This document shows positions 49,708 to 60,380 of a DNA stretch of 64,000 nucleotides, in pieces. Position 1 is the stretch's first letter. Each line of letters opens with the position of its first letter. The DNA lies in IMG/VR virus record IMGVR_UViG_3300010158_000051, positions 1-64,000 of that record. One strand, given 5' to 3'. Below the pieces are notes generated by a model. It saw only the letters and a program-made list of their open reading frames with translations, was not told the origin of the DNA and made no database searches. This stretch comes from a virus. A program made the translations under genes and the position numbers.

Positions 49708-49937
49708 TGACAAAGATTGTATTAAATTATGATAAAGCACATAGTTTTGTAAACAAGAATAAGAAGAATGGCTTCTTCTGGGATGGTTACACCATTGTAA
49801 AATGGACACCAGGCTCCAACGGTTACATGCAAAAAAATGGCATGTTTCGAAATAATCAATGGGGTTATTCCTCACGATATGAAGTCACTTCCTCTGGCAC
49901 ATGGGAATTAAACGACAAATATGCCAGATTTATTTAG
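49707..49937 (+). CDS. Small hypothetical protein
   Basis: 76 residues, basic, Tyr/Trp/Asn-rich beta type ('GFFWDGYTIVKWTPGSNGYM'). Overlaps groES and whiB. No family recognised. Confidence 0.55.
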   Translation: MTKIVLNYDKAHSFVNKNKKNGFFWDGYTIVKWTPGSNGYMQKNGMFRNNQWGYSSRYEVTSSGTWELNDKYARFI

Positions 49938-50247
49938 TCAATTAGGTTTAGATGAGCAAGATGTTAAGTGGTATCACTTAGCAGCATGCAAAGGTATGCC
50001 AATTGATTGGTTCTACGATAATTATGAAGCAGATAAAGAATTAGCTAAACAAGCTGATCAAGTATGTTTACATTGTCCTGTAATTAAAATGTGTCACGCA
50101 CAAGGCGTGATTAACAAAGAAAAAGGAGTTTGGGGCGGGGTCTACATGGACCTTGGAAGACCAGACAAACAACATAATTCACATAAAGATCCTGAGATAT
50201 GGAAGCAGTTAAAAAAGGCACATGGTAAAAATATCGTACACGGTTGA
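49921..50247 (+). CDS. WhiB-family iron-sulfur regulator
   Basis: 108 residues. Four Cys in WhiB spacing (C23, C49, C52, C58) for a 4Fe-4S cluster, then G69-V-W-G-G73 (the turn that binds sigma factor region 4) and a basic C-terminus. WhiB proteins occur only in actinobacteria and their phages, so this is the clearest host marker. Such phage WhiBs change host sigma-A promoter use; TM4 WhiBTM4 represses host whiB2. Confidence 0.9.
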   Translation: MPDLFSQLGLDEQDVKWYHLAACKGMPIDWFYDNYEADKELAKQADQVCLHCPVIKMCHAQGVINKEKGVWGGVYMDLGRPDKQHNSHKDPEIWKQLKKAHGKNIVHG

Positions 50248-59380: not shown

Positions 59381-59482
59381 ATGGATTATTTAAAAAAGAT
59401 TCCCACCGAATGTAAGCACAAGATAACAGTTGTAGATCAAAAACTTATCTGTGCTTATTGTGGTGAAGCAATTAAACTATAA
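59381..59482 (+). CDS. Zinc-type microprotein (33 aa)
   Basis: 33 residues after AAAGGAAAT. 'TECKHKITVVDQ' and 'ICAYCGEAIK' hold Cys, His and C-x2-C. Last gene before the control region. Confidence 0.5.
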   Translation: MDYLKKIPTECKHKITVVDQKLICAYCGEAIKL

Positions 59483-59523
59483 TAAGATAAATATACATTA
59501 TATAAGCTATATTCTATGGTTTA

Positions 59524-59553
59524 AAGTGGAGTAAAGTGGAGTATTGTGGAGAA
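59524..59553. repeat. Three phased 10-bp iterons
   Basis: AAGTGGAGTA, AAGTGGAGTA, TTGTGGAGAA in tandem with exact 10-base period, thus on one face of the helix. Confidence 0.8.
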
Positions 59554-59593
59554 TAAATACAGTAGTTATTATTTATTTAACAATTCATTATAT

Positions 59594-59607
59594 GTTTCAC
59601 GTGAAAC
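59594..59607. promoter_or_regulatory. parS: parS-type ParB-binding site
   Basis: GTTTCACGTGAAAC, a perfect 14-bp palindrome identical to the parS core of bacterial chromosomes (including Streptomyces and Mycobacterium). Such 14-mers are very unlikely by chance. No ParA or ParB gene is visible in the window, so host ParB is the probable ligand. Confidence 0.85.
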
Positions 59608-59667
59608 CATGTTATAGAACGATACATGATGGCGTTCGTAATGTCAAGTCCATATACGCATAAAATA

Positions 59668-59683
59668 TGTGATTAATATCACA
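59668..59683. promoter_or_regulatory. Perfect CRP/GlxR-type site
   Basis: TGTGA-N6-TCACA exact. Confidence 0.75.
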
Positions 59684-59703
59684 CATAATATGCCTATAAA
59701 ATT

Positions 59704-59748
59704 GGACAAAATAGGACAAAATGTACACAAAATAGGGTTATTTTGTCC
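59704..59748. repeat. GGACAAAAT repeats with inverted copy
   Basis: GGACAAAATA and GGACAAAATG in tandem (10-base period), then an inverted ATTTTGTCC at 59740-59748. Confidence 0.7.
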
Positions 59749-59766
59749 ATATATTGAGATATATTG

Positions 59767-59782
59767 TGTGAATTTGATCACA
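59767..59782. promoter_or_regulatory. Perfect CRP/GlxR-type site
   Basis: TGTGA-N6-TCACA exact. Confidence 0.75.
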
Positions 59783-59812
59783 TTTAATGTATCTCTATTT
59801 TTGTATACATTA

Positions 59813-59828
59813 TATGATCAACATCACA
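59813..59828. promoter_or_regulatory. Degenerate CRP/GlxR-type site
   Basis: TATGA-N6-TCACA: one perfect half. Confidence 0.45.
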
Positions 59829-59843
59829 CTTTATATGCTTGAC

Positions 59844-59880
59844 TTCCAGCGAAATTTATGCATCTTCGTAATGTCTGCAT
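59844..59880. repeat. 37-bp direct repeat, copy A
   Basis: TTCCAGCGAAATT, 7 variable bases, CTTCGTAATGTCTG, N, AT. Copy B is at 59952. Confidence 0.85.
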
Positions 59881-59951
59881 ATTTGAATATACATTTATAT
59901 AGACATATGTTTCTCCAGGTATTATTTGGTATGTTCGTAATGTCTGGAAAG

Positions 59952-59988
59952 TTCCAGCGAAATTCCCGCCCCTTCGTAATGTCTGGAT
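59952..59988. repeat. 37-bp direct repeat, copy B
   Basis: Same block structure as copy A. The core TTCGTAATGTCTG occurs also at 59934-59946, and shortened at 59635-59645 next to parS and at 62652-62664. Confidence 0.85.
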
Positions 59989-60021
59989 CTGAGCTACGCC
60001 TGCTCCTGCGTTTGGAAATGC

Positions 60022-60056
60022 GAGAGACCCCCACACCCAACATGTGGAGGTCTCTC
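60022..60056. terminator. Strong terminator for the leftward genes
   Basis: GAGAGACC/GGTCTCTC plus CCACA/TGTGG stem with CCCAACA loop; no U-tract. Sits about 30 bases from the end of the minus-strand block. Confidence 0.75.
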
Positions 60057-60086
60057 TTGGACTTGGCGGAAAAGCCTGAACGCCCG

Positions 60087-60380
60087 TTATGTCAGCATGA
60101 ACTCATTCATTGGTTCATCTTTTCTGACCATTCCCGTAAGGCCCAACTCCTCTAAGGAATACTTTAATTGCTTACACATCTGGTGAATTTCTACCAGTGG
60201 CATTGGTACCATTTCTTGGTCAGCCATTAGGATTACATAGTTAACTAAATAACCTAACATGGCCTCATTTACGTAGCGGTTTTCTCTTGTCATTTTAAGT
60301 GCAAGAATAGCGGGACTAACTCTTTGGTCCGCCAACCCTGCAGTAATCTTGTCATGTAGTTTTTGGTCAACGCTTGCCAT
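60087..60380 (-). CDS. Hypothetical helical protein
   Basis: 97 residues. Helical throughout ('QKLHDKITAGLADQRVSPAI', 'LVNYVILMADQEMVPMPLVE'). Last gene of the leftward block before the terminator. No family recognised. Confidence 0.6.
   Translation of the reverse strand: MASVDQKLHDKITAGLADQRVSPAILALKMTRENRYVNEAMLGYLVNYVILMADQEMVPMPLVEIHQMCKQLKYSLEELGLTGMVRKDEPMNEFMLT

Follow-up and report, generated by a model that had tools for sequence, protein, structure and literature searches.

The parS site and its surroundings

The window, a 64,000-nucleotide stretch of a 77,819-bp IMG/VR virus record, contains a 14-bp perfect palindrome, GTTTCACGTGAAAC, in a 0.6-kb gap between convergent gene blocks (Table 1). 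An exact-match search of the record locates this sequence (site A), which agrees with the bacterial chromosomal parS core at 14 of 14 positions. The bacterial parS consensus is TGTTNCACGTGAAACA (PMC7022226). On the + strand the window reads T-GTTTCACGTGAAAC-C, so that the parS 16-mer is matched at one of its two flanking letters. No second copy is found in the window or in the whole record with up to two mismatches allowed, and at 37.2% GC the chance expectation for an exact copy in the record is 0.0003. The first-pass annotation had described an exact parS core, improbable by chance and placed in a gene-free region between convergent blocks beside other DNA-binding motifs; all of this is borne out.

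The gap is delimited by the last + gene, which ends near 59482 as judged by eye, and by the first - gene, which ends at 60087. The parS sequence starts 11 bp beyond the second hexamer of a promoter-like element. A consensus promoter scan of this element gives no excess over shuffled sequences, its support being conservation in relatives; it may be a plain promoter, facing away from the genes of the direct terminal repeat (DTR). The neighbouring repeats are real and comprise four copies of TTCGTAATGTC (GACATTACGAA in Table 1) in the gap near site A, together with GGACAAAAT and GTGGAG repeats and palindromes of the CRP/GlxR type (TGTGAN6TCACA). The terminator-like hairpin is not among the predictions of a terminator scan. 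An RNA element was rejected, as an Rfam search of the gap returned no match. A small ORF beginning at parS (ATG GTT TCA CGT GAA ACA...) was likewise discarded, since it is not conserved in L137. The region from 58.0 to 61.5 kb has no DNA similarity to isolated phages.

Table 1. Features of the site-A gap and the WhiB-family gene
Feature	Position	Strand	Basis or remark
WhiB-family gene	49921..50247	+	profile match 4.5e-12; marker of actinobacterial host
Gene-free gap, convergent gene blocks	59483..60086	.	architecture kept in about 16 relatives; Jay2Jay synteny
GTGGAG repeats (CTCCACTTT on - strand)	59523..59555	.	conserved beside site A
parS GTTTCACGTGAAAC, site A	59594..59607	.	exact match; also at site A in L126, L133, L137
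Promoter-like element TTGACATTACGA..TAT(GC/CG)T	59619..59647	-	conservation in relatives
GACATTACGAA repeat, copy 1	59634..59645	-	repeat search
CRP/GlxR-type palindrome TGTGATTAATATCACA	59668..59683	.	perfect TGTGAN6TCACA
CRP/GlxR-type palindrome TGTGAATTTGATCACA	59767..59782	.	perfect TGTGAN6TCACA
GACATTACGAA repeat, copy 2	59864..59875	-	repeat search
GACATTACGAA repeat, copy 3	59933..59944	-	repeat search
GACATTACGAA repeat, copy 4	59972..59983	-	repeat search
Terminator-like inverted repeat (hairpin), beyond stop of last - gene	60022..60056	.	inverted-repeat pair

The record encodes a DnaB-like helicase, a primase, a DnaE-type polymerase, a RecA-like recombinase, a Cas4-type exonuclease, a large terminase, a ribonucleotide reductase and a DUF932 protein. 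The polymerase shares 54-57% identity with its counterparts in Streptomyces phages, among them BillNye, Circinus, Bmoc and Gilson; the DUF932 protein shares 51% with its Jay2Jay homologue. Judged by its genes, the record is an actinophage with WhiB and a relative of the Stanwilliamsviridae phages of Streptomyces; the likeness lies in homologous DnaE and DUF932 proteins, gene order and the DTR end. Among 14 control genomes the WhiB profile matches in Corynebacterium glutamicum only. WhiB is encoded in the record and in 23 of the 29 relatives examined for it, which makes an actinobacterium the most likely host. Our reading of the IMG sample numbers places the relatives in fresh water; the virus itself probably infects freshwater actinobacteria. 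A search for the phage polymerase in genome contigs of binned genomes recovered no host genome.

The profile for ParB_N has no match in the record or in 35 relatives, and that for AAA_31 (ParA type) has none in 22 records (this one and 21 relatives), the control being recognized in 14 of 14 cases. Pfam profiles could miss some ParB families. An unannotated phage ParA or ParB was rejected on these searches, whose controls worked. The first-pass annotation had seen neither gene in the window, and this extends to the whole record and to its relatives. With neither parA nor parB in cis, the locus is not a ParABS system. A tyrosine integrase (PF00589), which would point to a temperate, integrating phage, is likewise without a match in the 22 records. 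The record may be incomplete; full-length relatives of about 95-120 kb are likewise without ParB_N, AAA_31 and PF00589. In Jay2Jay (KM652554.1), gp11 and gp13 are annotated as 'ParB-like nuclease domain', yet PF02195 gives no match.

Conservation and relocation of parS on one genome arm

The 80 loci that surround DUF932 homologues (1.35 Mb) contain eight exact and three one-mismatch parS sequences, and no exact match to any of eight control palindromes. Site A is occupied in the near-identical L123 and in L126, L133 and L137. About 16 relatives are sequenced through the site-A gap; three keep parS there, and about 13 have the conserved gap without it. At a second position, site B, exact parS occurs in five relatives (L149, L143, L339, L341 and L342) and a one-mismatch version in L124 and L125, while in about 28 relatives the element is present and parS is not. 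Site C lies inside a small gene, with exact copies in L146 and L150 and one mismatch in L141. Its codons read CAC GTG AAA in L146 and L150, and CAT or CAC followed by ATH in 14 of the other relatives in the alignment. Site D is found in L059, a 98-kb relative, just beyond a tRNA-like sequence.

The parS sequence thus occupies at least four positions (A, B, C and D), unrelated to one another and all on one arm of the genome. When the complete records of 100 relatives are scanned (5.17 Mb, in which 0.02 exact copies are expected), none has more than one parS, and exact copies lie only on the DUF932/DTR arm. Several full-length relatives have no parS anywhere. Because of these, and because most relatives have no copy at site A, parS is not essential to the clade.

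Conservation of parS exceeds that of its flanks. At site A the 14 bp are 100% identical in four phages, with flanks at about 70%. At site B they are 100% identical in five phages, with right flanks at 28%, an identity so low that these flanks are unrelated. Both comparisons fit selection on the palindrome itself. The first-pass annotation had named absence of the site from the same place in close relatives as evidence against it. Most relatives do have no copy at site A, and several of them have one parS at another place on this arm, a finding that adds to the argument for host ParB.

The same arm is rich in CRP/GlxR-type palindromes. All ten perfect TGTGAN6TCACA sequences of the record fall between 59.6 and 73.4 kb, with none in the first 59 kb; the eight beyond those in Table 1 are at record positions 66217, 67617, 68759, 69033, 71234, 71841, 71956 and 73345. 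In the relatives, 357 are found on DUF932 arms and none in polymerase loci, and control palindromes give 0-2. A phage CRP-like protein reading these palindromes was rejected, as the HTH_Crp_2 profile has no match in 30 records. On this distribution, the early arm seems to be wired to a host CRP-family regulator.

Position of parS relative to the direct terminal repeat

The DTR measures 11,438 bp in Jay2Jay, 2,262 bp in BillNye and 766 bp in Gilson. Its right end carries a motif common to all three phages, TATGGGCGCACTA..TAT|CATACA..AACATTT. The corresponding motif, GGGCGCACTA..TAT|CATACA..AACATTT, is present in the freshwater relatives L143, L149, L339, L341 and L342. Since the site-B element has the right-end motif of the Streptomyces phages, site B marks the right DTR end in the freshwater phages, and its parS lies about 40 bp outside the terminus, this end being identified by homology. 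Sites C and D lie outside the right end by 2.3 kb and about 0.65 kb, respectively. The homologous end of the record falls at about 71643/71644, 12.0 kb from parS; the motif is found at 71601-71680, and also in KM652554.1, NC_042105.1 and NC_048742.1. The first-pass annotation contained nothing on the DTR of this arm or on the several parS copies that abut its right terminus.

By gene order, site A corresponds to a convergent junction of Jay2Jay that is found within the DTR, less than 1 kb from its left end. This synteny suggests that the site-A gap lies on the left side of the DTR or close to it. The left end shows no conservation among the Streptomyces phages, so that site A can be assigned to a left terminus by inference only. 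Two contigs, L144 and L183, end exactly at the site-A element, which weakly suggests a left DTR end there.

Host ParB as the probable ligand

We consider it fairly probable, from the pattern of conservation, that the site is a genuine host-type parS under selection, which would load host ParB onto the terminal-repeat/early arm of actinophages that have no ParB of their own. The site would then most likely be a borrowed host centromere. The interpretation of the first-pass annotation is supported in part. Recruitment of host ParB, as proposed there, is the reading best supported by the exact conservation and by the several positions on one arm, even though most relatives are without parS at site A; retention, partition or action on the host chromosome, the ends that it named, would be putative. 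ParB-CTP loads at parS and then slides along DNA. A host ParB-CTP clamp would accordingly be expected to load at the single phage parS, on entry or during replication, and to slide over the neighbouring arm that holds the DTR and small early-type genes; most likely, host ParA/SMC would thereby be used for positioning, compaction or retention of the phage genome. In C. glutamicum, ParB needs no more than a single parS to spread over up to 16 kb on either side and to bring about folding and SMC-dependent alignment of the chromosome arms (PMC7083940), so that one site, whether A or B, would be enough to cover the 12-kb DTR arm. We infer the binding, the spreading and the purpose of host ParB at the phage site. 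As a counter-point, partition is of little benefit to a phage that is purely lytic, and no integrase or ParA was found.

The same binding might serve other ends. ParB clamps spreading from parS beside promoter-like elements could repress transcription on the early/DTR arm or set its timing, as KorB or ParB repress promoters nearby, a possibility that we hold only tentatively. Two reports describe repression by ParB of parS-adjacent promoters in Pseudomonas (PMC5521831) and long-range silencing by KorB (PMC11790492). The 11-bp spacing between parS and the conserved element at site A and the wealth of CRP-type operators on the arm are in line with such a role, whereas the element is directed away from the DTR genes, scores no better than shuffles, and has no counterpart at sites C and D. 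A role in packaging, in which ParB beside the DTR would aid or limit formation of the genome end like host DNA-bending proteins at cos/pac, seems unlikely. It would account for site B, so close to a terminus whose motif Jay2Jay, BillNye and Gilson share, and for site A at a junction that matches the left DTR side by synteny, but not for the distances of sites C and D from the end, and in most relatives this terminus has no parS beside it.

We find it improbable that the site is a decoy by which replicated phage genomes titrate ParB off the host origin and disturb chromosome segregation. Phage replication would multiply the site and no phage ParB would be necessary, but titration should favour several copies rather than one per genome. 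Moreover, in those relatives whose DTR end could be placed, the sites are all outside the repeat, although inside it a second copy would be free; the single copy and this placement both argue against titration. Very improbable, finally, is a chance sequence or the operator of an unrelated protein that resembles parS. Absence from the same place in most relatives and the plentiful other palindromes on the arm (TGTGAN6TCACA) would be compatible with it. Against it stand the eight exact copies around DUF932 genes, when 0.02 are expected in 5.17 Mb, the identity of the letters to the exact bacterial consensus, and the excess of the 16-mer among viral contigs described below; a chance match was rejected on the expectation and the control palindromes.

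The 16-mer TGTTTCACGTGAAACA is present in at least 120 IMG/VR contigs, compared with 10 and 1 for two control palindromes of the same composition. Among 42 parS-bearing records, of which 39 measure 30 kb or more, 35 give no ParB_N match. This excess is a lead and not a result, since the contigs may include fragments, host or plasmid DNA; borrowing may nevertheless extend beyond one clade. A wider and more speculative proposal is that many phages without ParABS carry a host-type parS that docks host ParB; here, beside the terminal-repeat end, the clamps would cover the terminal/early arm and tie the location of the phage genome, its compaction or the processing of its ends to the host segregation machinery. 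Among the other contigs, L091 (926, 4731) and L356 (3097, 7122) are related to each other and unrelated to the record, and each carries a pair of exact parS copies at matching positions, one intergenic and the other coding-like. L340, a 94.5-kb viral contig, has three (4091, 4635, 4665) and no ParB_N. The short viral contigs L029 and L074 have five parS each within about 1 kb and are possibly host or plasmid DNA.

If the borrowed-centromere reading is true, a lytic-type clade has repeatedly acquired one host centromere with no ParB, a distinct form of host exploitation. A search of the available literature found no description of a phage parS used with host ParB. Phages are known to carry partition systems of their own. 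The mycobacteriophage RedRock and other cluster A phages encode ParA/ParB and have a parS of 8-bp direct repeats (PMC7157519); like them, the present phages are actinophages whose DNA has a centromere for a ParB, whereas here the site is of the host type and no ParA/ParB domain was found. Jay2Jay, BillNye and Gilson of Stanwilliamsviridae resemble the record in DnaE, DUF932, gene order and DTR right-end motif, but the seven Streptomyces phage genomes tested have no parS at 0-1 mismatches. Chromosomal ParABS systems differ in their setting, as the site described here lies on a phage genome, in one copy, with neither parA/parB nor a chromosomal oriC nearby; its 14-bp core is identical to that of the chromosomal parS of C. 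glutamicum and B. subtilis (PMC7022226, PMC7083940).
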